Source: a virus. Taken from it: a DNA stretch of 28,212 nt. Below are positions 1-18,700 of the stretch, one piece after another. The stretch is taken from positions 1-28,212 of IMG/VR virus record IMGVR_UViG_3300030106_007723; one strand, given 5' to 3'. Position 1 is the first letter of the stretch, and every line of letters begins with the position of its first letter. Made by a program: the position numbers and the translations under genes. Under the pieces are notes generated by a model. It saw only the letters and a list, made by a program, of their open reading frames with translations, was not told the origin of the DNA and did no database searches.

Positions 1-3000
1 ACACCAACTCAATCACCCACACAGACAAAAACACCAACAAATACTGCTACATCATCAAGAACACCTACTCAGACAGTTACAAGAACAATTTCAGAATCAC
101 CAACTCAAACACCAACTCAAACTCAGACAAGTACTCAAACACCTACTCAAGGAGCTACACCTACAGTTACTAGAACAAGAACACCAACCCAGACACAAAC
201 ACAAACTCCAACACAATCACCCACACAAACCGCTACAATAACTAGGACGAAATCTATTACTCAATCTGTATCACCTACACAGACACCCACTCAAACACAG
301 ACACCTACCAATACACCAACTCAATCTAGAACGCAAACCAGAACTGCAACTAATACAAGAACAGCTACTCAAACAAGAACAGCTACACAAACAGTTACTT
401 CTACTTCAAGTAGAACAGCTACTCAAACACAAACTGTTACCCAGACTGCTACAAAAACTGGTACCAGGACACCAACTCAAACGAGAACGGGTACACAAGG
501 AGCTACACCTACACAAACACCTACACAAACAGTTACCCAGACACCCACTCAGTCAAGAACACAAACACCAACACAAACAAGGACAATTACAAGAACCTCC
601 ACGCAAACAAGAACAGCTACACAAACAAAAACAAGAACCCAGACACCTACACAGTCAAGAACTGCAAGTCAGACACCCACAAGAACAGAAACACCTACTG
701 CTACTCAAACACCAACACAGACAGCAACTCTTACTAGAACAGCTTCTCAAACACAAACACCTACTCAAACAAAAACAAGAACTCAAACACCAACTCAGAC
801 AAGAACAGCTACTCAAACACAAACGCAAGGCGCAACAGCTACTAGAACACCTTCTCAGACCGTTACAAGGACCCAAACACCAACACAATCCCCTACACAA
901 ACACCTACTCAAACAGCGACAAGAACACAAACACCTACCAAAACCATAACTCAGTCACCTACAAGAACACAATCTCCAACAAAAACAGCTACTCAAACAC
1001 CGACACAGACAGAAACAAAAACACCAACACAAACACCAACACAAACCGCTACAAGATCTAGAACACCTACCGATACAAGGACACCTACACAAACAGCGAC
1101 AAGAACTCAGACACCAACACAAACAAGAACTTCTAGTCAAACGGCTACCAGAACACAAACACCTACGCAGACTCAAACAGGTACACAAACACAAACACCC
1201 ACTCAAACAGCTACTCGAACCCAATCCCCTACTTTCACACCAACCCAAACAGCTACAAGATCTAGAACACCATCGCAAACAGTTACAGCATCATCAACAA
1301 GAACAGCAACACAAACTCGTACTTCTACACAAACTAAAACTAGGACACAAACTCCAACACAAACACCAACAAGAACCGCTACTCAAACCAAAACTAGGAC
1401 ACAAACACCTACACAAACAGCTACTAGAACAAGAACCCAATCTCCTACTAGAACTCAATCTCCAACCGTTACTGTAACAGCATCAAGAACAGCTACCCAA
1501 ACGCCAACAAAATCTATAACGCAAACAAAAACAAGAACACAAACACCTACTCAATCAAGAACAGCAACAAGAACACCAACACAGACACAAACTAGAACAG
1601 AAACACCTACACAAACACCTACTAGAACACCTACCCAGACTAGAACAAAAACAAGTACTAGAACTGCTTCTCAAACTCAAACACCAACCGTAACTGCTTC
1701 TCCTACTAGAACAGCTACTCAGACAAAAACAAGAACTCAGACACCTACTCAATCACAGACAGTTACAAGAACAAGAACACCAACCCAGACAGAAACACGT
1801 ACTCAAACTAGAACAGCTACACAGACAAAAACAAGAACTCAGACACCTACACAAACACCTACACAGACTAGAACACAAACACGTACTGCTACGCAAACAG
1901 AAACAAGAACACCTACACAGACACAGACAAGAACGCAAACACCTACACAGACAAGAACAAGAACGCAATCCTCCACTGTAACTAGGACTCGAACAGCAAC
2001 ACAAACAAGAACACATTCACAGACAGTAACAAGAACACAAACTCCAACACAAACGGCTACAAGAACACCTACACAAACTAGAACACGCACACAAACACCT
2101 ACACAAACAAGAACGGCCACACAAACTAAAACAAGAACACAAACACCTACTCAGACACAGACATCTACAAGTTCTAGAACACCTACTCAAACGAGAACAC
2201 GCACACAAACACCTACACAAACAAGAACAGCTACTCAAACAAAAACAAGAACTCAGACACCTACTCAGACAAGAACAGCTACTCAAACACAAACACAGAC
2301 AAGTACAAGAACTCCTACTCAAACAAAAACAAGAACTCAAACACCCACACAGACTAGAACAGCTAGCCAGACTCAAACAAGAACCCAAACACCTACAAGA
2401 ACGAGAACAGCTACGCAGACTAGAACACCTACACAGACCAGGACTGCTACTCAAACACCAACCCAGACGAGAACAAGAACCCAAACACGTACTGCAACAC
2501 AAACAGCAACAAGAACTACCACCCAAACGAAAACACGCACACAAACACCTACACAGACTAGAACACGAACCCCATCACAAACAGTTACACCTACAGTTAC
2601 AAGAACACGAACACCAACACAAACTCAAACAGGTACTAGAACACAAACACCAACTCAAACAAGAACAATTACAAGAACAGATACGCCTGATTCTACAAGA
2701 ACACGTACTCCTTCACAAACCGCTACTGCAACTAAAACTAAAACAAGCACTAGAACACCTACACAAACAGCTACAAGAACTACCACCCAAACGAGAACAC
2801 GTACACAAACACCTACTCAAACACCTACTCAATCAAGAACACAAACACCTACAAATACGGTAACAAGGACAAGGACACCGACCCAATCAAGAACACCGAC
2901 ACAAACAAGTACAAGAACCGAAACACCAACTCAAACAAGAACGGCTACACAGACAAGAACACGTACACAAACGCCTACACAGACTCAGACACCCACACAA

Positions 3001-6000
3001 ACACGATCACAGACACCGACACAGACAAGAACACGAACCCCATCACAAACACGTACTCGGACACAAACAGCTACAAGATCTAGAACACCAACACAAACAT
3101 CAACTCAAACAAGAACTAGAACTGCTACACAAACTCGCACTAGAACACAAACACCTACTCAATCACAGACGGCTACAAGAACGAGAACGCCAACACAAAC
3201 AAGAACAAATACTCAAACATCTACGAGAACACAAACACCTACCCAGACTAGAACACCTACTCAAACACAGACAAGAACACAAACCCCGACACAAACAAGA
3301 ACATCTACAAGAACTCAAACACCAACTCAAACAAGATCTGCTACACAAACACGTACTAGGACACAAACACCAACTCAAACACCCACACAGACATCTACAA
3401 GAACCCGTACTCAAACTAGAACGGCAACACAAACTAAAACAAGAACTCAGACACCCACACAAACTTCTACTAGAACTACTACACAAACCAGGACGCAAAC
3501 ACCTACACAAACTAGAACACCCACTCAAACATCTACAAGAACTCAAACACCAACGCAAACAAGAACAGCTACACAGACAAGAACTAGAACTCAGACACCT
3601 ACTCAAACAAGAACAGCTACACAGACAAGAACACGTACACAGACACCTACAAGAACAAGGACTCCAAGTCAAACACAAACACCAACACAAACAGTTACAA
3701 GAACACGAACACCAACACAAACCAGAACGGCAAGCAATACACAAACAAGAACAAGAACTAGAACACCAACCCAGACACCAACCAATACAAGAACCGAAAC
3801 ACCAACAAGAACGAGAACCCCAACACAAACAAGAACACCATCTCAAACGCAGACAAAAACGCAGACAAGAACTGCTACGCAAACTCGTACCAGAACTCAG
3901 ACGCCAACGCAAACAAGAACTGCTACAGAAACAAAAACACCTACTCAAACCCGCACCAGAACACAAACACCTACTAGAACACAAACACCCACACAGACTA
4001 GAACACCAACTCAAACGCGCACTAGAACTCAAACACCAACAGTTACTATAACAAGAACTGCTACTCAAACCCGTACCCGAACACAAACACCTACGCAGAC
4101 AGCTACTCGTACAAGAACAAAAACAAGAACACAAACACCTACAAGAACGAGAACTCCAAGTCAAACACAAACACCCACACAGACAGCTACACGTACAAGA
4201 ACACCAACACAGACTGCTACTAGTACAAAAACCAGAACAAGGACACAAACACCTACACAAACTGCTACTAGAACACAAACTCCTACCCAGACAAGGACAC
4301 CATCGCAAACACGTACTAGGACGCAAACGCCCACTAGAACACGTACACAGACACCCACTCAAACACCCACTCAAACTCCAACACAAACAGTTACCAGAAC
4401 AAGAACTGCTACACAAACTCGTACCAGAACTCAAACACCAACACAAACAAGAACCGCTACGAGCACTAGAACCAGAACTCAGACATCCACTAAAACAAGA
4501 ACAAGAACTCCTACACAAACACGCACCCAAACACCAACAAGAACTAGAACGCCTACACAAACACCAACTCAAACAAGAACAATAACAAGAACTGATACAC
4601 CAGATTCTACAAGAACTAGAACACCTAGTCAAACACAAACACCTACCCAAACTAGAACACAAACGCCTACTAGAACTAGAACACAATCACCTACTCAAAC
4701 AAGAACAGCATCTCAAACAAGAACCAGGACTAAATCTCCTACACGTACTAAATCTATTACTCAAACTAAAACAAGAACCCAAACACCTACTAGATCCAGA
4801 ACACCGACCCAAACTAGAACCAGGACACAAACACCTACAAAAACAAGAACACAAACGCCTACTAGAACCAGGACACAAACACCTACAAATACAGCAACGA
4901 GAACTAGAACACCTACACAAACACGTACGGCTACTAATACTAGAACTAGAACCCAGACACCAACAAGATCTAGAACTCCAACTCAAACAAGAACAAGAAC
5001 ACAATCTCCAACAAGAACAGCAACTAGAACCAGAACGAGAACACCTTCTCAAACGGCTACTAGAACGAGAACTAGAACAAGAACACCAACTCAAACGAGA
5101 ACAAGAACTCAAACTAGAACTCGTACTCAAACACCAACAAGAACTAGAACACCAACTCAAACGAGAACTAGAACCCAGACACCAACACGTACAAGAACAC
5201 CTACGCAAACAAGAACTAAAACTAAAACAAGAACACCTACAAGGACCAGAACGAGAACGAGAACGCCTTCTCAAACTGCTACAAGTACTGTAACTAGAAC
5301 TAGAACTCCAACTCAAACTAAAACAAAAACTAGAACACCTACAGTAACAAGAACACGAACACCAACTCAAACACGAACAAAAACTAGAACACCAACACGT
5401 ACTAGGACACAAACACCTACAAGAACGAGAACACCTACTTATACTAGAACAAAAACTAAAACAAGAACACCAACAAATACAAGAACTAGAACTCGAACAC
5501 CTACACAAACACGTACGTCTACTAATACCCGTACTAGAACTCAAACGCCTACTAGGACTAGAACACCTACTAGAACGAAATCTATTACTCAAACTAAAAC
5601 TAGAACACAAACACCTACTAGAACAAGAACCCCTACTAGAACAAAATCTATAACTCAAACGAGAACAAGCACCAGTACAAGAACTCGAACTCAAACACCA
5701 ACGAGAACGAAATCTATAACTCAAAGTAAAACTCGTACTCCAACGAGAACGAAGTCAATTACACAATCTAAAACGAGAACACCTACAAGAACGAAATCTA
5801 TAACCCAAAGTAAAACTCGTACTCCAACGAGAACGAAGTCAATTACACAATCACCTACTTATACAAAAACTAGAACTAAAACTAAAACTAGAACACCTAC
5901 AGTAACGAAATCTATTACACAAAGTAAAACAAGAACACCTACAAGAACAAAATCAATTACGCAAAGTAAAACCCGTACACCCACTAGAACAAAATCTATT

Positions 6001-6180
6001 ACTCAAAGTAAAACACGTACTCCTACGGTAACGAAATCTATTACACAATCTAAAACGAGAACGCCTACTAATACACCTACTAATACGAAAACTAAAACGA
6101 GAACGAGATCAAAAACTCCTACTAGTACAAAAACTAAAACCAAAACACCTACAAAAACCAGAACACCAACTAAATCACCA
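1..6180 (+). repeat. Low-complexity (Thr-x)n coding repeat, about 2,060 codons
   Basis: Almost every odd codon is ACN. Sampling one codon in twenty (the first codon of each 60-base row from 1 to 6121, 103 rows) gives Thr 99 times and Ser (TCT) four times (1261, 1441, 3841, 5581), with no break in register. Where Thr is missing from its register the replacement is usually Ser, Gly (in TQGAT, near 151, 499 and 829) or Asp (in TDTPDST). Synonymous codons ACA, ACT, ACC and ACG are freely mixed, so this is not a simple DNA microsatellite. The + strand is strongly A/C-rich. Lys and Arg become more common at x positions in the last third. Confidence 0.95.
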
Positions 6181-6837
6181 TCAGGAGGACCTGTAACTCC
6201 TACGGTGGTGATGTTTAATAACTTTAATAATACCCCAACTACTACTAGTGCTTATGGGTGTGCTTATGTTGAAGATGGTAGCCCTGGTCCTGCATATGGA
6301 AATATTTCTTCTAAGTATGTTACATCTGGTGGTGTATATACATCTACTACTAGATGTTGGATGTGTGATTCCGGTAGTACACCTAGTGGTAGTACAGGGC
6401 CTAATGGTGGTGTTGTTGATACTACTATGGCTACGAGTGGCACTGCTAATTCGAGTTCTTCTTATAGATATTTGTATTGTGAAACATCAAGCCCTAACAC
6501 CACAAGTACAACGTTTGGTTATCTGTTAAAAACTAATAATGTTCCTGCAAGTAAAACAGTTAAGGTAGAATTTTGGTATCATATGTATGGATCGAATATG
6601 GGTACCATGGTCATAGGTTTTGGTGAAAAAACCGGAACAACTTCCTATTCACAAAAAGGGTCTGTTACTTTATCTGGACAACAACAAGCAAGTCAGGGAG
6701 CTGCTTGGTTAAAGAGCTCTAATACATATTCACACGGTGGTACAACTAGACAAAATTATGTTTCTTTATATTATATTTCAGGTGGCGGGTTTAGAGGAGA
6801 TGCATGTTTTGACTCTGTAGAAGTTTCTTATACATAA
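1..6837 (+). CDS. Giant Thr-x repeat fibre/adhesin-like protein with C-terminal MAM-like domain (5' truncated)
   Basis: Frame 1 is open from the first base to the TAA at 6835-6837, giving at least 2,278 residues; the start lies outside the window. Residues 1 to about 2060 alternate Thr with Gln, Arg, Pro, Ala, Lys, Ser or Val, for example TPTQTRTATQTRT. The C-terminal ~210 residues (from about 2065, after SPSGGPVTPTVV) are ordinary globular sequence with five Cys and the stretch VEFWYHMYGSNMGTM, then a Trp, then DACFDSVEV at the end. This order matches the MAM fold (F-W-Y-H-M-x-G followed by a terminal DD/DS-V strand), a beta-sandwich known for adhesion. The likely role is a long virion stalk carrying a binding tip; this is inferred from architecture and from the structural genes downstream. 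Internal ATG 6205 is not the start, because the frame is open far upstream. Glycosyltransferase genes follow immediately. The MAM call is by eye and moderately sure. Confidence 0.85.
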   Translation, partial: TPTQSPTQTKTPTNTATSSRTPTQTVTRTISESPTQTPTQTQTSTQTPTQGATPTVTRTRTPTQTQTQTPTQSPTQTATITRTKSITQSVSPTQTPTQTQTPTNTPTQSRTQTRTATNTRTATQTRTATQTVTSTSSRTATQTQTVTQTATKTGTRTPTQTRTGTQGATPTQTPTQTVTQTPTQSRTQTPTQTRTITRTSTQTRTATQTKTRTQTPTQSRTASQTPTRTETPTATQTPTQTATLTRTASQTQTPTQTKTRTQTPTQTRTATQTQTQGATATRTPSQTVTRTQTPTQSPTQTPTQTATRTQTPTKTITQSPTRTQSPTKTATQTPTQTETKTPTQTPTQTATRSRTPTDTRTPTQTATRTQTPTQTRTSSQTATRTQTPTQTQTGTQTQTPTQTATRTQSPTFTPTQTATRSRTPSQTVTASSTRTATQTRTSTQTKTRTQTPTQTPTRTATQTKTRTQTPTQTATRTRTQSPTRTQSPTVTVTASRTATQTPTKSITQTKTRTQTPTQSRTATRTPTQTQTRTETPTQTPTRTPTQTRTKTSTRTASQTQTPTVTASPTRTATQTKTRTQTPTQSQTVTRTRTPTQTETRTQTRTATQTKTRTQTPTQTPTQTRTQTRTATQTETRTPTQTQTRTQTPTQTRTRTQSSTVTRTRTATQTRTHSQTVTRTQTPTQTATRTPTQTRTRTQTPTQTRTATQTKTRTQTPTQTQTSTSSRTPTQTRTRTQTPTQTRTATQTKTRTQTPTQTRTATQTQTQTSTRTPTQTKTRTQTPTQTRTASQTQTRTQTPTRTRTATQTRTPTQTRTATQTPTQTRTRTQTRTATQTATRTTTQTKTRTQTPTQTRTRTPSQTVTPTVTRTRTPTQTQTGTRTQTPTQTRTITRTDTPDSTRTRTPSQTATATKTKTSTRTPTQTATRTTTQTRTRTQTPTQTPTQSRTQTPTNTVTRTRTPTQSRTPTQTSTRTETPTQTRTATQTRTRTQTPTQTQTPTQTRSQTPTQTRTRTPSQTRTRTQTATRSRTPTQTSTQTRTRTATQTRTRTQTPTQSQTATRTRTPTQTRTNTQTSTRTQTPTQTRTPTQTQTRTQTPTQTRTSTRTQTPTQTRSATQTRTRTQTPTQTPTQTSTRTRTQTRTATQTKTRTQTPTQTSTRTTTQTRTQTPTQTRTPTQTSTRTQTPTQTRTATQTRTRTQTPTQTRTATQTRTRTQTPTRTRTPSQTQTPTQTVTRTRTPTQTRTASNTQTRTRTRTPTQTPTNTRTETPTRTRTPTQTRTPSQTQTKTQTRTATQTRTRTQTPTQTRTATETKTPTQTRTRTQTPTRTQTPTQTRTPTQTRTRTQTPTVTITRTATQTRTRTQTPTQTATRTRTKTRTQTPTRTRTPSQTQTPTQTATRTRTPTQTATSTKTRTRTQTPTQTATRTQTPTQTRTPSQTRTRTQTPTRTRTQTPTQTPTQTPTQTVTRTRTATQTRTRTQTPTQTRTATSTRTRTQTSTKTRTRTPTQTRTQTPTRTRTPTQTPTQTRTITRTDTPDSTRTRTPSQTQTPTQTRTQTPTRTRTQSPTQTRTASQTRTRTKSPTRTKSITQTKTRTQTPTRSRTPTQTRTRTQTPTKTRTQTPTRTRTQTPTNTATRTRTPTQTRTATNTRTRTQTPTRSRTPTQTRTRTQSPTRTATRTRTRTPSQTATRTRTRTRTPTQTRTRTQTRTRTQTPTRTRTPTQTRTRTQTPTRTRTPTQTRTKTKTRTPTRTRTRTRTPSQTATSTVTRTRTPTQTKTKTRTPTVTRTRTPTQTRTKTRTPTRTRTQTPTRTRTPTYTRTKTKTRTPTNTRTRTRTPTQTRTSTNTRTRTQTPTRTRTPTRTKSITQTKTRTQTPTRTRTPTRTKSITQTRTSTSTRTRTQTPTRTKSITQSKTRTPTRTKSITQSKTRTPTRTKSITQSKTRTPTRTKSITQSPTYTKTRTKTKTRTPTVTKSITQSKTRTPTRTKSITQSKTRTPTRTKSITQSKTRTPTVTKSITQSKTRTPTNTPTNTKTKTRTRSKTPTSTKTKTKTPTKTRTPTKSPSGGPVTPTVVMFNNFNNTPTTTSAYGCAYVEDGSPGPAYGNISSKYVTSGGVYTSTTRCWMCDSGSTPSGSTGPNGGVVDTTMATSGTANSSSSYRYLYCETSSPNTTSTTFGYLLKTNNVPASKTVKVEFWYHMYGSNMGTMVIGFGEKTGTTSYSQKGSVTLSGQQQASQGAAWLKSSNTYSHGGTTRQNYVSLYYISGGGFRGDACFDSVEVSYT
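5578..6060 (+). repeat. Ten copies of a KSITQ(S/T) motif, mostly a 42-bp (14-residue) tandem array
   Basis: The Lys codon of KSITQ lies at 5578, 5644, 5710, 5752, 5794, 5836, 5908, 5950, 5992 and 6034. The copies at 5710-5836 and 5908-6034 are exactly 42 nt apart, with unit KSITQSKTRTPTRT. The block 5701-5768 recurs at 5785-5852 with only two base differences, so an 84-bp double unit was duplicated recently. Isolated copies also occur near 250, 1510 and 4750. The array sits just before the globular C-terminal domain. Confidence 0.9.
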
Positions 6838-6848
6838 CAATTCTAGTT

Positions 6849-6877
6849 GATATTTTAATTTTGAATGTTAAAATATC
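6849..6877. repeat. Perfect AT-rich inverted repeat between the stalk gene and the first glycosyltransferase
   Basis: GATATTTTAA (6849-6858) and TTAAAATATC (6868-6877) are exact reverse complements around a 9-nt loop. It lies 11 nt after the stop of the giant ORF and ends 3 nt before the ATG at 6881. There is no T-tract after it, so it is not a canonical intrinsic terminator. It could be an RNA processing or stability hairpin, or could mask the start of the next gene. Confidence 0.75.
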
Positions 6878-6880
6878 TTG

Positions 6881-8425
6881 ATGCCAGGAATAAAAATCTA
6901 TAGAAAAAGTAGGTTAAAAAATGAAAATACTGAAAAGATAGTAGAACAAACTATCCAAGAAGTAAAAAATGACGAGGAGGTTAATACCGAATCATTACCA
7001 ACACCCGAAGAAGAACCGCAACCATATGTAATAAAAGATTATAATAGCGTTATAGATCCTTCTTTTTATCAAACATTTCCTGATCATCTTAAAGGTAATC
7101 AACAAATTTTTATTCAAATAGCTGCATATAGAGACCCTGAATTAGTACCAACTATTGAAAGTATTATTGCTAATGCAGATGAACCAGATAACTTAAGATT
7201 TGGTATTTGCTGGCAACATCATATGGACGACGATTTCGATAAAGAAATGTATGAATATATGAAAGATGAAAGGTTTCAAGTAATTGATGTAGATAATAAA
7301 AGAGGGCACGGTACTTGTTGGGCAAGACACTCTATACAACATCTATATTGTGAAGAAGAATTTACTTTAGCAATTGATTCTCATCATCGTTTTGTTCCTG
7401 GCTGGGATTCAAAGCTAAAAAGCATGTATTATTATTTGCAACAAAAAGGTCACACAAAACCTCTTCTCACTGGTTACATTACTAGTTATAAACCATGGTT
7501 AGAAAACAGCGACGATACTGGAGAATATTCATTAGAAAATGGTTTTGAAACAGAACCTTGGAAAATGGTCTTTGATAGATTTATTCCAGAAGGTGCTATT
7601 TTCTTTTTGCCTACATCTATGACTGGAAAAGAACTTCAAGAGCCGATACCTTCAAGATTTTATTCAGCACATTTTTGTTTTACTGGAGGTGAATTTTGCA
7701 GAGAAGTAACTCATGATCCTAATTATTATTTTCATGGAGAAGAAATTAGTATAGCAGTAAGAGCTTACACACATGGATATGATTTATTTCACCCAAATGA
7801 AATTATAGCTTATCATGAATATACAAGAAAAGGTAGACCCCATCACTGGGATGATTGCAATAAAAAGCAAGGGCGTAAACATGATTGGTGGGAAGTAAAT
7901 GAAATGTGCCATAAACGAAATAGAATTTTATTTGGTATGGATGGTGAAGATCCTAATCAAATTAATTTCGGAGATGAATATGGTTTTGGTAAAGTTAGAA
8001 CAGTAGAACAATATCAACATTATTCGGGTATAAACTTTGAAAAAAGAGCTATAACCCAAGATGTAAGAGATAGTGTAAATCCTGTTTACCCGCATAATGG
8101 TACCCCTTATGAAGATATTAATTGGTTGAAAAACTGGTGTATAGATTTCTTTATACCTTGGGATGAATTACCAGAAACTTATGATGATACTGAATTTTGG
8201 TATGTTGGTGTTCATGATGAAGATGGGAATGAATTAGTCAGAGAAGATTATTCTATAGATAAAATTCAAGAAATTTATGACGAAAGACAAGATCCTCATG
8301 CAGCAAGATTTCCTATAGGTCTAGTATCTGATAAAAGGCCTGTAAGTTATACGGTTATACCGCATATTAGAGATAAAGGTTGGTTGGATAAGATTGAGAA
8401 ACAACTGGATCCAAACTTAAAGTAA
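6881..8425 (+). CDS. GT60-like (GlcNAc/Skp1-type) polypeptide glycosyltransferase, copy 1
   Basis: The protein has 514 residues from ATG 6881; an in-frame TTG at 6878 is less likely. After a charged, Glu-rich N-terminal tail (about 1-70) comes the catalytic domain. It starts IFIQIAAYRDPEL (about 76) and carries GTCWAR, then IDSHHRF with the metal/nucleotide-sugar Asp near 166, SRFYSAHFCFT, and HGEEISIAVRAYTHGYDLFHP (from about 284). These are hallmarks of the GlcNAc (PF11397) / CAZy GT60 family. Known members add GlcNAc from UDP-GlcNAc to Thr of Trypanosoma cruzi mucins or to hydroxyproline of Dictyostelium Skp1. Residues from about 420 form a C-terminal module (EFWYVGVHDEDGNELVRED ... GWLDKI) shared with the next gene. 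The family call is strong. The acceptor is unknown, but the Thr-rich stalk encoded just upstream is the obvious candidate. No clear Shine-Dalgarno sequence is seen. Confidence 0.85.
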   Translation: MPGIKIYRKSRLKNENTEKIVEQTIQEVKNDEEVNTESLPTPEEEPQPYVIKDYNSVIDPSFYQTFPDHLKGNQQIFIQIAAYRDPELVPTIESIIANADEPDNLRFGICWQHHMDDDFDKEMYEYMKDERFQVIDVDNKRGHGTCWARHSIQHLYCEEEFTLAIDSHHRFVPGWDSKLKSMYYYLQQKGHTKPLLTGYITSYKPWLENSDDTGEYSLENGFETEPWKMVFDRFIPEGAIFFLPTSMTGKELQEPIPSRFYSAHFCFTGGEFCREVTHDPNYYFHGEEISIAVRAYTHGYDLFHPNEIIAYHEYTRKGRPHHWDDCNKKQGRKHDWWEVNEMCHKRNRILFGMDGEDPNQINFGDEYGFGKVRTVEQYQHYSGINFEKRAITQDVRDSVNPVYPHNGTPYEDINWLKNWCIDFFIPWDELPETYDDTEFWYVGVHDEDGNELVREDYSIDKIQEIYDERQDPHAARFPIGLVSDKRPVSYTVIPHIRDKGWLDKIEKQLDPNLK

Positions 8426-8446
8426 AGTAAATTATAACAGGATGCT

Positions 8447-9805
8447 ATGAAAGACGAAACTATTTTTATACAAATTGCCTCGTATAGGGACCCAGAACTT
8501 CCAATTACATTAAAAAGCTGTATTGAAAATGCACACAGACCTGAAAATTTGAGGTTTAGTATTTGTAGACAATTTAAAGAAGGGGATAAATTTGATGAAA
8601 TCCCTCTATATGAAGATGATGCAAGATTTAAAGTTGTTAACGTACCTTGGAAAGAAGCTAAAGGTGTTTGTTGGGCTAGAAATATTGTTCAAAATGAATA
8701 TAACGGAGAGACTTATACTTTACAGTTAGACTCTCATCACAGGTTTGCACCTGGGTGGGATACACTTAGTATAGATATGGTAAAGCAGTTACAAAAAAAG
8801 GGTCATAAAAAGCCTTTACTAACAGCATACATTCCGTCATATAAACCTTCTAACGACCCAGATGGTAGAGAAAAGGATCCATGGTTTATGGAATATGATA
8901 GATTTATTCCAGAAGGTGCAATATTTTTCTTACCTTCAACTATACCTGATTGGGAAACAAGATTAGAACCAATGAGATCAAGATTTTATTCTGCTCATTT
9001 TTGTTTTACTTTAGGGCAGTTTTGTGAAGAAGTTCCACATGATCCAGATTATTATTTTCACGGTGAAGAAATTAGTATTGCTGTTAGAGCTTTTACTCAC
9101 GGTTATGACCTATTTCACCCTCATAAAGTATTATGTTGGCATGAATATACAAGAGAAGGAAGAGATAAGCATTGGGAAGATCATGACGTAGATTCTGGTT
9201 CATCTGCAGGTTGGATTTCTGTAAATGATAAATGCCATTTTAGAAATAGGACCTTATTTGGTATGGATGATACCGACCCTGAATCAATTGATTTTGGTAA
9301 GTTTGGTTTTGGTAATCAAAGAACGTTAGAAGATTATGAAAGATACGCTGGAATTAAGTTTGATAGAAGAGGCGTTAAAGAGTATACCTGGCCTGAAAGA
9401 TTAGAACCACCTACCCCGAATTATATTGATAACCCCGATATTTACCCAACTAAAGAAGATTGGTTAGATAGTTTCGGTCGTAACTGGTGTGTAGATATAT
9501 GGATATCAGGAGACGATATTAATACACCCGAGCATGAAGATTGTGACTTTTGGGCAGTAACAGCTCATGATAAAGATGGTGAAGAGATATATAGAGAAGA
9601 TTTAAATGAATGGAGACTTTCTGAAGAAAAAGCAAAAGAAAATGCAAGCTTTTTCTTAAAGTTTTGTTCTGATAAAGAACCAAGAACTTGGTGCGTTTTA
9701 CCACATAGTAAAAGTAAAGGGTGGTTAGATAGAATAGGCCCTGTTGAATTAAGAACACCAAGATCAAAATACGAAATAGAAAACGGAATTTTTGCTGATG
9801 AATGA
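8447..9805 (+). CDS. GT60-like (GlcNAc/Skp1-type) polypeptide glycosyltransferase, copy 2
   Basis: This is a 452-residue paralogue of the preceding gene without its charged N-terminal tail. IFIQIASYRDPELPITLKSC begins at about residue 5, GVCWAR follows, and QLDSHHRF places the catalytic Asp near 95. SRFYSAHFCFT and HGEEISIAVRAFTHGYDLFHP (from about 205) are nearly identical to copy 1, so the active site is intact. The C-terminal module (NWCVDIWIS ... DFWAVTAHDKDGEEIYRED ... GWLDRI) also matches. The family transfers GlcNAc to hydroxy-amino acids on polypeptides. Two diverged copies suggest either different acceptor sites or stepwise (priming and filling) action on a dense Thr array; this is inference. 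The start ATG 8447 has a short AGGA (8439-8442) upstream. The stop overlaps the start of the next gene, implying coupled expression. Confidence 0.85.
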   Translation: MKDETIFIQIASYRDPELPITLKSCIENAHRPENLRFSICRQFKEGDKFDEIPLYEDDARFKVVNVPWKEAKGVCWARNIVQNEYNGETYTLQLDSHHRFAPGWDTLSIDMVKQLQKKGHKKPLLTAYIPSYKPSNDPDGREKDPWFMEYDRFIPEGAIFFLPSTIPDWETRLEPMRSRFYSAHFCFTLGQFCEEVPHDPDYYFHGEEISIAVRAFTHGYDLFHPHKVLCWHEYTREGRDKHWEDHDVDSGSSAGWISVNDKCHFRNRTLFGMDDTDPESIDFGKFGFGNQRTLEDYERYAGIKFDRRGVKEYTWPERLEPPTPNYIDNPDIYPTKEDWLDSFGRNWCVDIWISGDDINTPEHEDCDFWAVTAHDKDGEEIYREDLNEWRLSEEKAKENASFFLKFCSDKEPRTWCVLPHSKSKGWLDRIGPVELRTPRSKYEIENGIFADE

Positions 9806-12398
9806 AGAACTACAAAGTAAATTAGCACCTTATAATACTTGGCAAGTAGAGAGAATATTTGATATTTCTTTACATAATGCTGGAAGAAAAAAAGATAATG
9901 AAGTTTTTTGTCTTTCAGTGGGTTCAATGGATGGTCATTTTCACGACACAATGGCGGGGTATATTTCGCTATATAGGTGGGGTGGGATGTTTATCGAACC
10001 TTTACCAGACGCATTTGAAGCTTTATCAAATTATTATAGAGAACATTTAAAAAATGATAAAGCTATTTTAGAAAATGTAGCAGTTTCGAATAATATAAGA
10101 GTCGAAACTATGTGTTATATACCTTGGAAAAAAATCGAAGAACTTGATTTAGATGTACCGTTAAAAGGAATGGCAAGTTTTATTCCTCCGGTAAATGGAT
10201 TTGATTCTGATGAAAAGAGTAAAGCTCTTTTAGATGAACACGGCGAAATGTGTGAAGTACCGGTAGTAGTATTAGATAGTTTATTAGAAAAACATAATAT
10301 AGAAAGAATAGATTATGTTACAGTTGATACTGAAGGCCATGATTATTGGGTCTTTGAAGGATTTAACTTTGAAAAATATAAACCTAAAGTAATTAAGTTT
10401 GAATTGTTTAACAGTGAAGACGGCAATTTAAAACAATTATTTGAACGTTTTGAAAATGCAGGGTATACATTAACCAATCAAGAAGGTTGTGATATCATGG
10501 CTTTTGAAAATGAACATTTAGAATTTTTAAAAAATAATAAAAGATGGCCTGAGGTTGAAAAGTTGGGACAGTGCGTAGAAAATACAGGTTATCGTTTAGA
10601 TAAAGATGGTAATTATGTAGATGCCCCTGAAAATGTAGAATTAGGTGATGACGATTATCAAGAACCAGAACCTTATGTTTATCAAGAAGAGAAAACAGAC
10701 GATAAACCTTCTCAGGTTTACTCTAACGAAGGACCATCAAAGACTACTATAGTTACTGGTATTTGGGATTTAAAACGAGATACCTTAGCGGATAGTTTTA
10801 AAAGACCGTTCTCTCATTATACGGATAAATTAATCGATCTTTTAAAAACAGACGCTCCAATGATTGTTTATGTTGACCCAGAATATGAAAGCCTAGTATG
10901 GGAACATCGATCAGAAGAAAATACGCAAGTAATTGCAAAAGCTGCAGAAGAATTTAAAACTTGGTTTGAATTTTTTGACCAAGTACAAAAGATTCGCTCT
11001 AACCCGGAATGGTATAATAAAGCATCCTGGCTCCCCGAAAGTACTCAAGCTGGGTTAGAGCTATACAATCCAATGGTAATGTCTAAGATGTTTATGCTTA
11101 ATGATGCAAAAATATCTAACCCTTTTGATACTGATTATTTCTTATGGGTAGACGGTGCCATAACCAATACAATACACCCTGGGTATTTTACCCATGATAA
11201 AGTAATAAACAAAATTCATCATTACTTGCAGAAGTTTTTGTTTATTTGTTTTCCGTATGAAAACTATGAAATACATGGTTTTGATCACGATAAATTAAGA
11301 GAGTATTGTAATGTAGATAAAACAACATGGGTAGCAAGAGCTGGTATATTTGGGGGTCATAAAGATTACATTAGCGATGTTAATGGTCTTTATTACGATT
11401 ACTTAAAAGCTACTTTAGACGAAGAACAAATGGGTACTGAAGAATCTATTTTTACCATTTTAACTTATAAACATAGCGATATAGTTGATCGTGTTATGAT
11501 AAGAGATGATGGGTTGATAGAATGCTTTTTTGAAAATCTAAAAAACGATACCGTAGATTTAATAACCACAAAAAGAATAAGAAATCTTGATGATGTTAAG
11601 ACCTATCTATACGTTATAACATATAATTCTCCAGATCAATTTTCTAGATTATGTGAAAATTGGGCTGAAAGAGAGAAATTTTTATATAATACAACAAAGA
11701 TATTGTTGAATAATTCAACCGATTTAACAACTCAAGATGAATATGATCAATTATGTGAAACTTGGGACTTTACTCAATTTAAAAAAGATAATATCGGTAT
11801 TTGTGGTGGTCGACAATGGGTCGCAGAACATTTTGAACAAACAGATGGAGATTATTATATCTTTTTAGAAGATGATATGTACGTCCATACAGATTGGAAA
11901 GGTACTTGCCCAAATGGTTTTCCTACATATATTCCTCAGTTGTACGATAAAGTTCATAATATTATGGAAAAGGAAGGTTATGACTTTTTAAAGTTTTGCT
12001 TTACCGAGTTTTTTGGAGATAATAGAGTGCAATGGGCTTGGTATAATGTACCTCAAGAGTTAAGAGAAAGTCATTGGCCAGAAAAGAAATATTTACCCGC
12101 AAATGGTTTAGATCCAAATGCACCTCTTACTAAATTCAAAGCTATAAAAAATGAAAATGGGCTAGCATATGCTGATGGTGAAATATTTTATTGTAACTGG
12201 CCTCAGATAGTTTCTAAAGAAGGTAATAAGAAAATGTTTCTAGAAGAAACTTGGGCTGCTCCTTTTGAACAAACTTGGATGTCATATATTTTTCAAGAGA
12301 CGGTAAAAGGTAATATCAATCCTGCTATTTTACTTGCAACTCCTTGCTATCATGAAAGGTTTGATTATTATGACGCATCTGAAAGAAGAGAAAACTAA
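9798..12398 (+). CDS. Three-domain fusion: FkbM-type methyltransferase, HtrL/YibB-like domain, GT-A glycosyltransferase
   Basis: The protein has 866 residues from ATG 9798, which overlaps the previous stop by 8 nt; TTG 9792 is an unlikely alternative. Residues about 30-235 are FkbM-like: VFCLSVGSMDGHFHDT (SAM loop), GGMFIEPLPDAFEAL, then DYVTVDTEGHDYWVFEGF. A linker with acidic YQEPEPYVYQEE follows. Residues about 315-590 begin TTIVTGIWDLKRDT and contain YFLWVDGAI and ARAGIFGG, matching the HtrL/YibB family, thought to be glycosyltransferase-like. Residues about 600-866 begin TYLYVITYNSPDQF and carry YYIFLEDDMYVHTDW, a GT-A fold with a DxD-like EDD metal site near 689. The fusion could extend and methyl-cap a glycan. 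Each domain call is by motif; substrate and linkage are unknown. Its position directly after the two GT60-like genes supports a shared pathway. Confidence 0.8.
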   Translation: MNEELQSKLAPYNTWQVERIFDISLHNAGRKKDNEVFCLSVGSMDGHFHDTMAGYISLYRWGGMFIEPLPDAFEALSNYYREHLKNDKAILENVAVSNNIRVETMCYIPWKKIEELDLDVPLKGMASFIPPVNGFDSDEKSKALLDEHGEMCEVPVVVLDSLLEKHNIERIDYVTVDTEGHDYWVFEGFNFEKYKPKVIKFELFNSEDGNLKQLFERFENAGYTLTNQEGCDIMAFENEHLEFLKNNKRWPEVEKLGQCVENTGYRLDKDGNYVDAPENVELGDDDYQEPEPYVYQEEKTDDKPSQVYSNEGPSKTTIVTGIWDLKRDTLADSFKRPFSHYTDKLIDLLKTDAPMIVYVDPEYESLVWEHRSEENTQVIAKAAEEFKTWFEFFDQVQKIRSNPEWYNKASWLPESTQAGLELYNPMVMSKMFMLNDAKISNPFDTDYFLWVDGAITNTIHPGYFTHDKVINKIHHYLQKFLFICFPYENYEIHGFDHDKLREYCNVDKTTWVARAGIFGGHKDYISDVNGLYYDYLKATLDEEQMGTEESIFTILTYKHSDIVDRVMIRDDGLIECFFENLKNDTVDLITTKRIRNLDDVKTYLYVITYNSPDQFSRLCENWAEREKFLYNTTKILLNNSTDLTTQDEYDQLCETWDFTQFKKDNIGICGGRQWVAEHFEQTDGDYYIFLEDDMYVHTDWKGTCPNGFPTYIPQLYDKVHNIMEKEGYDFLKFCFTEFFGDNRVQWAWYNVPQELRESHWPEKKYLPANGLDPNAPLTKFKAIKNENGLAYADGEIFYCNWPQIVSKEGNKKMFLEETWAAPFEQTWMSYIFQETVKGNINPAILLATPCYHERFDYYDASERREN

Positions 12399-12425: not shown

Positions 12426-15400
12426 ATGGATGTTAAGGTACTTACAAGCAATAACTTAGTAAGTTTAAGTGCTAATTATAGTTTAGACCAGCAGATTAAC
12501 TTTTTAAAAAGCGAAAAAAATAGTTATCATGGTGTAGATTTTACGCTAAATGCATGTCTATCAGGTACTAAAGATACGTCTACTAACAAATATTCAAACT
12601 TTTATCTATCGAATAGCGAAAAATATAAAAACATTTTAGAGTTAGATAATTTAGATGTTCCTGACGATTATAAATTTGTTACTTATATTACAGTAACTGA
12701 AGCACCTACAACTTATCTTGCTGTGGGTAATAGCATTATTAATAATTCTGCTCAAGTTAATTTTACCGATTCATTATCTGACAATTCATATTTTTTAATA
12801 GAATTCAATTTTGATAACGAAACATGTTACATTTCAAATTCTAAAGACGTAACAAGATATCTTGGATTTGATTATATAAACAGTCAGTTTGTTTTTCTTT
12901 CTAGTAAAAGTGATGATTTAAGTTTGTTTAATTATGTTTATGATAAAGATAACCAATCGATTGTCTTCTCTAAAAAATTATACGATAAAGTAAATTATCT
13001 TTATTATGATCAAACTTCTAATTTATTATCTTTTAGAAATGCGTTATCCACTACTTCGTTTACTCCTTTTAGATATAAAAACGTATTCAAATTAAGGAAA
13101 GATTATTTTAATCTCTCTAATTCTTTATCAAGTTCAAATTACGTTTACAAACAATCTTTAGATAAAACTCAACTACAAGTTGACTCTCTAAAAAGTACTA
13201 ATGATTATAATTCAAATTTCCTTTTTAATAATGAATTTTATTCTATAAACCCTTACCAGCAAGCTAATTTAGATATTAATCTTTTAAATTTAAAAAATGA
13301 AAAGACTGTTAATAATGAACAGTCCGAAGGTGGGGTGTTTTTTAACGAACCGGCATTTAAGCACAGATACTACGATTCTTTATTTACAGGTGTAAATCAA
13401 GAAAAGGGAAATTATAATATTGGTTTAGGTTATGCAGGCTATTCAATTTCTAAAGTTTTTTACGCTGATAGTTTAAATTACTTTCATATACCTTTCAATA
13501 TATACCCTTACCAAAAATTAAATGTAAATGATTCATCTTTAGTAATATCGGGGTCTATACCGAGTGATACACCATATTATTCAGATAAAATATTCAAAAC
13601 TTTAAATGACTATTTATCTAGTTCTCCCTTTGGTAACGTTTCAGATACACAGACCGGTGCGTATCTTTGCACTTGGTTATCCGGAGGTGACGACCCAAAT
13701 CAACCAGGATTGTGGGTAGATAGATATTATGACCCAGCACAAATTTCTTACTATGAAGCTTTAACAGAAAGCTCTACTGCTTTGTTTCCTGACACTAATT
13801 TCGATCAAGTTAGTTCTAACGTAGGCTTTGATGACGTTAATTATGATTTATTTGACAAAATTAGCGACTTAACTTTTGAAGAAGGGGCTCTTTATGCTTA
13901 CCATCATATTGGTAATGATAATTGTCAATCATTTGTTAATGGTTTATCGTCAAAATTAATTTTTGATAACTTTGAAAGATATTTTAACAAATTTTATATA
14001 AAGCAGGATTTTGATAAAGAAATTTTATTTGATGGAAATTATTTTGCTAAAGCTTTAGAAGGGAGTTTAGATGATTTATCAACCTACGATAATTTTTCAG
14101 TTACGTTTGATATGTATAATGAAGACTGGACCAAACCTTTTGGTTCACAAATAGTAGGTAATTATACAAATAGAGGATATGGTATATACAACTATAGGAG
14201 AATAACTCCCCATTCATTAACTTTTTATCTTAAAGATATATTCATTTACAATACTTTTGGAACACTACTAAGAACTATTAATCATGATGCGACAATTATT
14301 AACATACAAAAATTACAACCTAACGGTGACTTTTTAGTTTTTGATTCTGCTGCATTTGTAACGAAGTATAACTATATAGGTACTAAATTAGAAAAAAGAA
14401 ATTTAGATTTTATAGAAAATAATCAAAATGTATCTTTTTATTCGTTTGGAAAATATGTTTTCATATTGAACGGTTCTGATTGGTATAGATTAGATTCTAC
14501 AAGTTTGGAAAGCGAATCAGGTGATGATTTAACATATGACGTAAAAAGATTAGGGGATGAATATAGTTCAATCGCAGTAAAAGACAATACTGTTTGTTTA
14601 CTATCTGGTTTTAACCCTAAGTTTATAGGTAATGATGTTTATTTTTATACCGAAAAAGTACTAAAATATTTTAACATTACCAATGATAGTTTAAGAGATA
14701 AGATTGAAGTAGAAATATTAAACGATTATACTTTTGATAATAACGGTGTATTTTATACGATTTTTGATCAGAATAAATTTGCTGTTATAGACCAATACGA
14801 TACTAATATTACTGATACATTTCCTGAACTATCTGCTAATAAGGGAGCAAGATTTGTTTCATTAAGCACAGTAACTGGAAATGAACAATCATTTGGTAAA
14901 GGTATAGATCTTATAAGCGAATTTTATAACGGTGAATTGGTAGATAATTTTCTAACTGTTTTTAGTTTAAGTTCTAATGGATCAACTAACCCAGAAACAT
15001 CGATAAATCTTCCTTTTTATACAAGATGCAAAACAGACTTTTCTGAAATAAGTAGCGTTACTGATGGTAATTTCACCACAACAAATCAAGCTTACGATTT
15101 GTTGAGAAATATTAATAACTATAACTACGTGCTAAACAATTTTGATGACGGTAAAAATTTAAATGTAATATTGAGGTTACCTTTAATTTATGACGTACAA
15201 ACATACGAAGAAGCAACTTTAACTTACCCGTTATCAAATATAAGCCCAGGTTATCACAATTTTACAACATCTTTAGATACAACAAAAGGGTTGTTTAATT
15301 TATTTGTTGATGGTAAGTTAGTAGACACTTACGGATTTCAAAATACAAAATATAGTTACGGTACTATTTTTGACAACACTTTTTATATTGGGACAGAACC

Positions 15401-15785
15401 CAGTTATGGTAATAATAAACTTAATGAAAATTTGGAAGACGTAAATTATTATAATTATGGTAACTTTACAATAAAAGATTTTTACATTTATAATATACCG
15501 CTATATATTTACGACGTTGCTAATATTATAAGATCAAAAAATAAAATTCAAAATCTTTCTTTTGAGTTGCCTACAGGAAAAAGAAACTATGTAGAACAAA
15601 TTGAAAGAACGTTTAAATTTAGATTACCAGGAAGGAAAAGCAATTTATTTAACGTGAAAATTTTAGATACAGGTATTACAGAAGAAAGCTTACAACTCGA
15701 TATATCAAATAATATTATTGAATCAATTAAGGAAGTGATTCCTGCTAATACTAAGTTAAATAAAGTTAATTGGGAAATAGAATGA
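12426..15785 (+). CDS. Large virion structural protein with C-terminal LamG-like region
   Basis: This is a 1,119-residue, Asn/Ser/Tyr/Asp-rich, beta-type protein without catalytic motifs, signal peptide or membrane segment. Around residue 411 is TGAYLCTWLSGGDDPNQPG followed by WVDRYYDP, a compact Trp/Cys-rich patch. Residues about 915-1050 look like a concanavalin/LamG jelly roll: YHNFTTSLDTTKGLFNLFVDGKLVDTYGF, then FYIGTEPS, then IKDFYIYNIPL. The C-terminus (TFKFRLPGRKSNLFNVKILDTGI onward) is more conserved-looking and may be the virion attachment part; this is a guess. It overlaps the next gene by ATGA, so the two are probably co-translated and may act together in the tail, baseplate or fibre. 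I do not recognise a named T4 homologue. A structural role is inferred from composition, size and neighbours. Confidence 0.75.
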   Translation: MDVKVLTSNNLVSLSANYSLDQQINFLKSEKNSYHGVDFTLNACLSGTKDTSTNKYSNFYLSNSEKYKNILELDNLDVPDDYKFVTYITVTEAPTTYLAVGNSIINNSAQVNFTDSLSDNSYFLIEFNFDNETCYISNSKDVTRYLGFDYINSQFVFLSSKSDDLSLFNYVYDKDNQSIVFSKKLYDKVNYLYYDQTSNLLSFRNALSTTSFTPFRYKNVFKLRKDYFNLSNSLSSSNYVYKQSLDKTQLQVDSLKSTNDYNSNFLFNNEFYSINPYQQANLDINLLNLKNEKTVNNEQSEGGVFFNEPAFKHRYYDSLFTGVNQEKGNYNIGLGYAGYSISKVFYADSLNYFHIPFNIYPYQKLNVNDSSLVISGSIPSDTPYYSDKIFKTLNDYLSSSPFGNVSDTQTGAYLCTWLSGGDDPNQPGLWVDRYYDPAQISYYEALTESSTALFPDTNFDQVSSNVGFDDVNYDLFDKISDLTFEEGALYAYHHIGNDNCQSFVNGLSSKLIFDNFERYFNKFYIKQDFDKEILFDGNYFAKALEGSLDDLSTYDNFSVTFDMYNEDWTKPFGSQIVGNYTNRGYGIYNYRRITPHSLTFYLKDIFIYNTFGTLLRTINHDATIINIQKLQPNGDFLVFDSAAFVTKYNYIGTKLEKRNLDFIENNQNVSFYSFGKYVFILNGSDWYRLDSTSLESESGDDLTYDVKRLGDEYSSIAVKDNTVCLLSGFNPKFIGNDVYFYTEKVLKYFNITNDSLRDKIEVEILNDYTFDNNGVFYTIFDQNKFAVIDQYDTNITDTFPELSANKGARFVSLSTVTGNEQSFGKGIDLISEFYNGELVDNFLTVFSLSSNGSTNPETSINLPFYTRCKTDFSEISSVTDGNFTTTNQAYDLLRNINNYNYVLNNFDDGKNLNVILRLPLIYDVQTYEEATLTYPLSNISPGYHNFTTSLDTTKGLFNLFVDGKLVDTYGFQNTKYSYGTIFDNTFYIGTEPSYGNNKLNENLEDVNYYNYGNFTIKDFYIYNIPLYIYDVANIIRSKNKIQNLSFELPTGKRNYVEQIERTFKFRLPGRKSNLFNVKILDTGITEESLQLDISNNIIESIKEVIPANTKLNKVNWEIE

Positions 15786-18700
15786 TAAACATTTCTACAG
15801 AATTTACTAATTATGGGTACACATTTAACAGAACTTTAAGCTCTGTCATTCAATTACCTTTTGAAGAAAATGAAATATTATTAGGTGTTAACGAATTAGT
15901 AAACGGCTATAATTTTAATTCTAGCGTAGATAAACTTCAATCTAATTTAATGTACCTTTATTCGGTATCTAAATTAGCTAATCCAGATTTACCGCAATTA
16001 TATGAAGGGTTTATAGGCACTGCATGTATAGAATGCCCTAAAATGGAAGTATCTATAAAAAACTTTACACCTTATACTAAAGCAGTTGAAGCAAATGATA
16101 ATGAAAATTTGGATGAAATGCCGTATTTTTATTTGTCTGATCATGAAAATAATTCCTATATAATTGCTTATGACTATAACGGGGTTAACCCTATTACAAA
16201 TGATCTTAGAGGGGATTTAATTACAATTGATTTAACTTTAGGACAATATTCAGGAGATCTTTTAGCTACTTATGGTACACAACAAGCCTTAAGTGCATAT
16301 TTTCAAGCAAATTCTTTTAGATATAATTCATTATATGGAGGTACAAATAGTTGGCCAGTATTAGAGTTGTCATCATTCTCAGAAGGTGGTATATTTTTTG
16401 GTGGTCAAAATTTTTCAATTTATGGGAGTCTTTTCAATAATACACCCGCTACATTAAAACTCCAACAAGGGTTGCCTAGTTTCGGGTTTAAAAGATTTGA
16501 AAATATTAATACCGAATCTTTAGTTACTACAACGGTAAACAAAGAATTTAATTATCTTACGTCTCTTTCTATAGGACCCGGTACGTTATCTGGTTATGAA
16601 AGTCTTTTTTGCGTTAGCCTTTCAACTATTTCCGCTTTAAGTGCTAAAACAAATTCTTCGCTTTCTGAAGATTATACTTTTGTAAACGTAAGTTCAAGTG
16701 TAGGGGTTAATAACGAATTAGGATTTTTAGGGATAAATGGTTCTGCATATAATAATGGTTCATTATATGTTTCAGATGAAGGTAATAATGGTGTTTATAG
16801 GATAAACGTTAATGGATTTGTTAATGAAGACAACATAAGAAGTTACCCTGATCCTAAATTCTATGAAACCGAAATTATAGGAGGGTTTGGTGGTATAAGA
16901 GATAATTATTCTTTCAATAGACCTAAAGTTTTACAATATTATAAAGACGAACTTTACGTGCTTGATCAAGGAAATCTTTGTATAAAAATATATGATAAAG
17001 ATCTAGGTTTCGTGCGAAATATTAGAAAGTCTGCATTTTATAAAAACAACCCACCAGCGGCTATAAAGTTATATAACGACAAATTTTATTGGTTAACCAC
17101 TAGTGGTATAATGTATACTTTAGATTCTGATTTGAATCCAATAACTTCTAAACAATTATATAACTTTCAAAACTCAGAAGAGTTTGTAGATTTTATAGTT
17201 GATGAATCTATTGATTCAATTTTCGTTGCTACCAAATTAAACTTATACAAATACTTTTTTTCTAACTTAGAATACATAGGTCGTTTTAATTTAAAGAATA
17301 ATAAAATAGAAAATGTTTATATTAACTTTATAACGCAAATTAATACTAACGACGAATCTCAATTATATGTTTATGTTAGAAATAATAATGCAGGTGGTTT
17401 CTTAATTTTTAATGAAGATAAAAATTATCTTAATTTACTTTCTAATTATAATTTTGATGTATATGGTATAGAAGATATTAAAGTCGATAAAAATGAAAAT
17501 GTATCAAATTTTAGTTACAATAAAAGCATTATTAAACTTTTAGGTAATAATTTACAATTCAAAAACTTTATTTCTAACGTAGTTACTGTTTCGCTTTTAA
17601 GGGACGGTGGTATTAGTTTTGATGGTGTAAGATATTTTGATGACGAAGATTTATCTATTTTAGATTTTGAACCCTCATTAAACAATTTTATCGGTACAAA
17701 TGAAATATTTTCAAGAACTGTTGTTAATAGAGTTCTAAAAGAAATATACGATTATCAAATTGAGTTAGTTAATTTGTTTAAAAACAAAGTTACACCTCCT
17801 CCGTCGCAGGTGAACATTTTATCACCTACTTTGGACGGATTAATGTTGGAAGATTTTCCAGGTAACGCTAACGGTTATTATAGACTTGAAAATGGTGATG
17901 ATAATAGAGACGCTGTATTGTTAGAAAATGAAGTTTTAAAACAGCAACCTGTAGAATTACCTGAACCACCACAACCAGAACCCGAACCTGAACCTGAACC
18001 AGAAGAAACTGAATGTGAATGTTATGTTACTATAGATAGTACAGACTGTATGTTTAATGATCTACCAGATACTTGCAACCCACCATATAGTCTAATAGAT
18101 TTAGATAATTTCAATAAAGAAGAAACGGTTCAAAAAGAATTTGTTTTCCCAGAAGATTTCCCTACTGGTGAACTTTTAGGTTCAAGATATATTATTGCAG
18201 GTGATTCTAGTGTAGAAGATTACACTGTAACCATTGACGGTTATATAAAAAGATATTCCTCTGGTTGGATTCATATACCAATGAATACTTCCACCGACAG
18301 TTATTATATTAATATAAATGGTGAAAGAATAAAGAAAAACGGTGAACAATTTTATTTTGCAGATATAGCAGATTTAACAGATATGGATCGAGCTATTACT
18401 TATTTTGAGCAACAAGAACAAATAGCTATAGATAAGCTTAAAGATGAAATGAAGGACGCTGGTATACCTTTAGCAGTGGACCCAACCACTATAAATTCAG
18501 CTACAGGTAATACAAGAGAAATAATTTATAAGTTAGATGAAAGTAAAAAGTTGGGTGTATTATCTTATGTTTCAAAAAATTTAGATGTTATAAATTATTT
18601 CGGTGATGTCATAGATGTAGGTTACAAATCGTTTAAAACAATAAACGTTAACAATGGGTTAGTTTATAATAATACGGTATTTGGAATGTACTTAGTTCCT

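Follow-up and report, generated by a model that had tools for sequence, protein, structure and literature searches.

The stretch of DNA described here (the window) comprises the first 28,212 bases of the 61,653-base virus record IMGVR_UViG_3300030106_007723, and its first base is also the first base of the record. The source virus is a T4-like myovirus, with head genes in the window; the tail sheath and the large terminase are encoded farther along the contig. The window opens with a giant open reading frame (ORF) in which Thr occupies nearly every second position, followed on the same strand by two genes for PF11397/GT60-like polypeptide glycosyltransferases (GTs) and by a gene for a fusion protein with methyltransferase and GT-like parts. 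The observations given below make it quite probable that this region is a phage-encoded module for mucin-type O-glycosylation, consisting of a mucin-like fibre, GT60-like initiating enzymes and enzymes that extend the glycan.

ORF 1-6837 (plus strand) is open to the window start and represents the 3' part of a gene truncated by the end of the contig; the N-terminus of the protein, where any attachment domain would be sought, is lost there. Positions 1..6174 code for 2058 residues of a (Thr/Ser-x)n sequence pattern, here called the stalk. The 1029 positions of its Thr phase are filled by 945 Thr, 79 Ser, 3 Gly and 2 Asp (1024 of 1029 Thr or Ser), and the other phase has Thr at just 3 of 1029 positions, which brings Thr to 948 of the 2058 residues, or 46%. 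An earlier reading of this DNA, made from the sequence only, had put the number of Thr acceptors in this gene at roughly a thousand. The x residues are mainly Arg (300), Gln (289), Pro (188), Ala (73) and Lys (67). The stalk is a long, repetitive tract dense in Ser and Thr, as a mucin-like protein should be. It is also very basic (367 Arg and Lys versus 14 Asp and Glu), unlike its relatives, which are rich in Pro, Asn, Val and Glu.

All four Thr codons are in use in the stalk (ACA 536, ACT 254, ACG 81, ACC 77), which argues against a recent expansion of a DNA repeat. With many Arg, Pro and Ser codons used as well, the possibility that the stalk is an artefact of DNA repetition was rejected. 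Of the 84 replacements in the Thr phase, 79 are Ser, whereas one-step codon neighbours would give 22% (log10 p about -44). The same is seen in the representatives of 41 GT60 clusters, where Ser accounts for 372 of 513 replacements and 24% is expected. It is the side-chain hydroxyl that selection keeps in the stalks; the x residue differs freely among phages.

The last 220 residues of the ORF (6175..6837) contain a MAM domain, a jelly-roll (PF00629, E 1e-7, above the cut-off), which had escaped the sequence-only reading and is presumably the adhesive tip of the protein. A gene of the structural region that ends in a domain of the receptor-binding type is what a phage fibre would be expected to have, and Thr-alternating fibres of other phages match LamG, beta-propeller or "virion structural protein" families. 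A pattern scan of viral contigs for an intact copy of the stalk gene, sought via the MAM tip, found no relative. Mucin-like polypeptides extend by about 0.25-0.3 nm per residue, and by analogy the visible part of the stalk would by itself be about half a micrometre long. Thr-alternating ORFs as such (PHROG 15511, function unknown) are common in environmental phage contigs, and most of the contigs with such ORFs are without GT60.

The two enzymes that follow, GT1 (6881..8425, plus strand) and GT2 (8447..9805, plus strand), are 52% identical and match the PF11397 profile with 222.8 and 241.2 bits, respectively, against a curated cut-off of 21. Both carry the motifs IAAYRDPEL or IASYRDPEL, DSHHRF and HGEE, and the early description of the locus as a giant Thr-x ORF followed by two intact GT60-like enzymes is borne out by the sequence pattern, the profile scores and these motifs. 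In an alignment of 55 phage homologues, which includes both window copies and leaves aside two rows from annotated phage records, D95, S96, H97, R99, E207, E208 and H232 are invariant. GT1 has an N-terminal extension of about 70 residues, and its likely start codon is the ATG at 6881 rather than the TTG at 6878. In GT2, the catalytic domain begins at residue 4, with neither an N-terminal extension nor a signal peptide ahead of it.

The AlphaFold2 model of GT2 (mean predicted local distance difference test score, pLDDT, 89) was compared with solved structures. The best 29 Protein Data Bank entries are all polypeptide N-acetylgalactosamine (GalNAc) transferases, with Z of 18.7-22.3 and 263-288 residues aligned, and the next fold, that of other GT-A enzymes, comes after a step down to Z 16.2. 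As modelled, the GT2 fold is GT-A of the polypeptide N-acetylhexosamine (HexNAc) transferase type. Neither a two-member nor the 55-member profile found a GalNAc-transferase, or any sequence-level match, among the sequences of solved chains; the relation of the phage enzymes to the GalNAc-transferases therefore rests on the comparison of folds together with PF11397. Among the members of the GT60 family are the Skp1 hydroxyproline N-acetylglucosamine (GlcNAc) transferase and the Trypanosoma cruzi polypeptide alpha-GlcNAc transferase; in protists, GlcNAc is typically the first sugar of mucin-type glycans (PMC6939170, PMC8724618). By analogy, GlcNAc would be the sugar expected in the phage as well.

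Downstream of GT2, and overlapping it, is the gene of an 868-residue fusion (9792..12398, plus strand) of an FkbM methyltransferase, an HtrL/YibB part and a GT-like C-terminal domain, presumably an enzyme of glycan elongation or capping. Similar genes occupy this place in other phages. Among 80 ORFs directly downstream of GT60, there are FkbM methyltransferases (8), GT10 fucosyltransferases (5), GT25 (4) and YibB (4) proteins, in addition to GT34, GT7C, RXYLT1, TylF, UDP-galactopyranose mutase, carbamoyltransferase and sulfotransferases. The 75 control ORFs, taken from the same loci at distances above 5 kb, match mostly unrelated families, apart from four YibB, two GT4-type and a few nucleotide-sugar enzymes. 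From this gene content we infer a fixed initiator accompanied by an exchangeable set of enzymes for the outer glycan. In a mucin-type pathway, the initiator would be joined to its substrate, with extension and capping enzymes coming after it; at the level of gene linkage, this is found here. A Pfam scan of the ORFs downstream of stalk genes on contigs not known to carry GT60 returned mostly ordinary phage genes and two PF11397 matches, with no alternative GT family.

If the stalk is the substrate of the GT60-like enzymes, the two should occur together in other phages. Of 80 loci on viral contigs that carry a GT60 homologue, 53 have a Thr-alternating ORF within 10 kb in the fetched flanks, with 22 Thr in 30 alternate positions as the threshold. 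The same count is 1 of 80 in control loci of a head protein (major capsid protein, MCP), 0 of 68 in loci of a random 15-mer and 0 of 79 in collagen-like loci. As the control loci are shorter on average, the comparison was also made with loci no shorter than 9 kb, giving 53 of 80 versus 1 of 126 (Fisher p 1e-27). Ten of the 27 GT60 loci without a nearby Thr-alternating ORF carry the DNA pattern elsewhere on the record. After deduplication at 90% GT identity, 25 of 41 clusters are positive (two cultured-phage loci included), and at 80% identity 11 of 25. In the reverse direction, Thr-alternating contigs were obtained from a scan for a 15-fold (ACN NNN) pattern, blind to GT60. PF11397 is present on 19 of the 61 that are phage contigs of at least 20 kb (12 of 44 in the first batch, 7 of 17 new records in the second), as compared to 0 of 25 random and 1 of 45 collagen-like contigs (1 of 70 together; Fisher p 1e-6). 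The low count of the collagen-like contigs led us to reject the view that the co-occurrence is a generic trait of fibre-rich phages.

The two genes are also adjacent. In 31 loci, the stalk gene precedes GT60 in the same orientation, with less than 500 nt between its end and the GT60 gene, and in 24 the gap is below 100 nt. In 9 of 24 deduplicated loci, the gene directly upstream of GT60 is the stalk gene, versus 2.8 expected from chance gene order (p 0.0008). Two loci that were fetched with the FkbM-YibB-GT protein rather than with GT60 (L503 and L504) have the order stalk, GT60, GT- or methyltransferase-like genes and further stalk ORFs. The sequence-only reading had proposed co-occurrence of GT60-like genes and (Tx)n ORFs as one of its checks, with a lack of it speaking against the idea; the association turns out to be strong in both directions, with adjacency above chance. 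The literature searches found no report of the pairing.

A related arrangement exists outside phages. On Bacteroidota chromosomes, GT60 adjoins a Thr/Ser/Pro-repeat protein with an RR-containing, signal-like N-terminus. In Jiulongibacter (L479, 7945-15148), the pair is accompanied by a carbamoyltransferase and an FkbM-YibB fusion like that of the window; in a Saprospiraceae locus (L474, 6361-13104), the repeat protein has a Por_Secre_tail domain, and a YibB-GT2 protein and a sulfotransferase are present. The pair is also found in a Bacteroidia locus (L476, 2148-3442) and in genome G463 (L518, 4884-9452). PF11397 is rare in the order searched (7 of 390 genomes). To judge from their gene content, these are possible surface-mucin loci of the bacteria. 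As this setting is independent of phages, it supports the stalk as the substrate, and the resemblance suggests that the phage and Bacteroidota systems share ancestry, in either direction.

The recurrence of the pairing in dozens of phages and in some bacteria indicates that phages probably build and sugar-coat mucin-like fibres of their own. By combining all these data, it is possible to propose how the module might work, in a scheme where we infer the donor sugar, the Thr linkage, the order of action, the virion location of the stalk protein and the function of the glycan. The stalk ORF would encode a virion adhesin fibre, in which a very long, disordered, mucin-like rod with a hydroxyl acceptor at every second residue carries the MAM domain at its tip. 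The two soluble GT60-like enzymes would act in the host cytoplasm before assembly, adding alpha-linked HexNAc, probably GlcNAc, to the Thr and less often to the Ser residues of the rod; possibly, one copy primes and the other fills in. The FkbM-YibB-GT protein, together with other GT and nucleotide-sugar genes on the contig, might then extend and cap the first sugar. In other phages, fucosyl-, galactosyl-, methyl-, carbamoyl- or sulfotransferases would fill the extension slot, leaving the initiator conserved and the outer glycan diversified. The glycosylated rod would subsequently be assembled with the MAM tip pointing outward. Its dense glycans may hold the rod in an extended form, make it resistant to proteases and give it a sugar coat that varies; the candidate roles are stiffening, protection from proteases, shielding and adhesion. 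We also lean, with less assurance, towards a wider picture, in which Thr/Ser-alternating fibres, a GT60-like initiator that is conserved and an extension and capping set that is exchanged rapidly form a widespread modular phage system whose ancestry is shared with a Bacteroidota surface-mucin system.

Several observations weigh against this proposal. Seventeen of the 80 GT60 records have no Thr-alternating ORF at all, and 42 of the 61 Thr-alternating contigs, many of them fragments, are without PF11397. In one GT60 group (L037, L042, L050, L063, L068) the upstream genes are unrelated. The phages RAS14 and CM1 have the GT, and RAS14 is without a Thr-alternating stretch. Most Burkholderia-type GT60 loci have no Thr-alternating partner nearby, and the family probably has further substrates for that reason. 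The association statistics control for phage lineage incompletely. The exchange of Thr and Ser is easy in proteins generally, and the Ser bias by itself is no proof. Moreover, blind-scan contigs with and without detected PF11397 show alike a weaker Ser bias (52% and 53%), so the hydroxyl constraint is independent of GT60 detection, and stalks may exist without GT60. In the cultured Xanthomonas phage XacN1, the GT60 gene (ORF334, PF11397 E 3e-77) and the Thr-alternating ORF350, which adjoins an annotated structural protein, are 12 kb apart. Electron microscopy of XacN1 showed no tail fibres, and the main text of its description does not name the proteins that bear glycans (PMC5852040). The presence of both genes in XacN1 nevertheless counts in favour of the proposal, as indirect evidence, since the same authors reported at least two glycoproteins and suggested phage-encoded glycosyltransferases (PMC5852040).

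The GT60 loci that have no Thr-alternating ORF could mean that the enzymes modify another target, such as a host surface polysaccharide, another virion protein or the phage DNA, and lie near the stalk gene because both belong to the fibre and adsorption neighbourhood. Modification of DNA or of host antigens by phage GTs is well established, according to work cited in PMC12619734. This explanation appears unlikely, as the closest folds to the GT2 model are specifically polypeptide GalNAc-transferases, well apart from other GT-A enzymes, and as the adjacency of stalk and GT60 exceeds the gene-order expectation. Shared neighbourhood would also not account for the lack of the association in collagen-like fibre contigs, nor for bacterial chromosomes that pair GT60 with a T/S/P-repeat protein outside phage fibre loci. 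The abundance of Arg and Lys in the stalk, and the many phages that carry Thr-alternating ORFs with no PF11397 on the contig, would fit an unglycosylated basic rod that binds cell surface polymers electrostatically or serves as a spacer, with the GTs decorating only the tip or neighbouring structural proteins. A rod based on charge needs no Thr or Ser at 1024 of 1029 positions, and in other phages the x residues vary freely (Pro, Asn, Gln, Val and Glu) while the hydroxyl phase is kept; such a rod is quite improbable. A structural beta or ice-binding-like array unrelated to glycosylation, suggested by the strict i, i+2 spacing of Thr, which resembles one face of a strand, can be practically dismissed, since Pro at 188 x positions (and as the commonest x residue in relatives) disfavours beta strands, the non-Thr residues of the Thr phase are Ser and not Val or Ile, the alternation is almost unbroken across 2058 residues, and the GT association would be left aside.

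The proposed phage O-glycosylation module shares features with several known systems. As in the GT60 enzymes of Dictyostelium and Toxoplasma (Gnt1) and of T. cruzi (pp-alphaGlcNAcT), the match is to the same Pfam family, PF11397, with high scores and with DxH and HGEE motifs, and like the cytosolic Skp1 enzyme, the phage GT60 has no signal peptide. Eukaryotic GT60 members start mucin-type O-alphaGlcNAc (PMC6939170, PMC8724618). In contrast to these, the phage enzymes lie in a late structural region, are duplicated and adjoin their candidate substrate, with the phage donor and acceptor being predicted. The GT27 GalNAc-transferases and the animal mucins are similar in that they provide the closest solved folds, acceptor Thr/Ser residues densely spaced along a rod that contains Pro and is presumably disordered, and an initiating enzyme that is followed by variable extension enzymes. 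They differ in that the phage enzymes have no significant sequence similarity to solved GalNAc-transferases, the phage acceptors stand strictly at every second residue, and the setting is the bacterial cytoplasm and not the Golgi. Virion glycosylation in XacN1 and in mycobacteriophages likewise involves phage-encoded GTs with virion protein targets. In mycobacteriophages, where such glycosylation is already known, the targets are the C-termini of capsid and tail-tube proteins (work cited in PMC12619734), whereas the proposal made here is for a mucin-like fibre as the dedicated target and an initiator of the GT60 type. The Bacteroidota loci have GT60 beside a Thr/Ser-rich, P-alternating protein, with an FkbM-YibB fusion and carbamoyl- or sulfotransferases nearby; unlike the phage module, they are chromosomal, their genes are often divergent, and the partner has the RR signal-like N-terminus (in one case with Por_Secre_tail).

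Mucin-type glycosylation is usually thought to be eukaryotic. The association, the polypeptide-GT fold and the recurrence in bacteria support much of the original idea of a virus that glycosylates a mucin-like fibre of its own, in which GlcNAc as the donor sugar, the modification of Thr and the role of the glycan are predictions. The expectation that this would be unusual for a virus has to be corrected, given that environmental tailed phages widely share the arrangement and that virion glycosylation was known before. As a candidate substrate is encoded next to its enzymes both in phages and in some Bacteroidota, the pairing is directly testable. If true, the proposal would account for a large group of Thr-alternating phage ORFs that lack annotation (PHROG 15511), would make a sugar coat that varies one more layer in the interaction of phages with hosts and environment, and would represent a compact bacterial route to dense O-glycan rods.

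Several other genes of the window lie on the plus strand. Two large ORFs of 1119 and 1261 residues (12426..19555), the second of which matches a virion structural protein family, are followed by a head-tail adaptor (21448..22473), a head closure protein (23279..23722), a head maturation protease (24364..25044) and the major head protein (26150..27682). Their proximity places the glycosylation cassette in the late structural region. Other glycan-related proteins on the contig are a nucleotidyltransferase, a PfkB kinase and GT2-, GT4- and galactosyltransferase-like proteins. The nucleotidyltransferase (PF00483, record positions 40957-41835) and the PfkB-family sugar kinase (40167-40964), with several GT-like ORFs around them, possibly form a nucleotide-sugar pathway of the phage. 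Two ORFs, one in the window (22489-23274) and one in the downstream contig locus (L472:129-773), look sulfotransferase-like by eye, with a P-loop-like start and RxP motifs; neither has a significant Pfam match, the best being Sulfotransfer_1 with E 0.06 for the downstream ORF. The same contig encodes a QueF-like 7-cyano-7-deazaguanine reductase (L472:770-1675), hinting at a 7-deazaguanine modification of DNA or RNA in the source phage.

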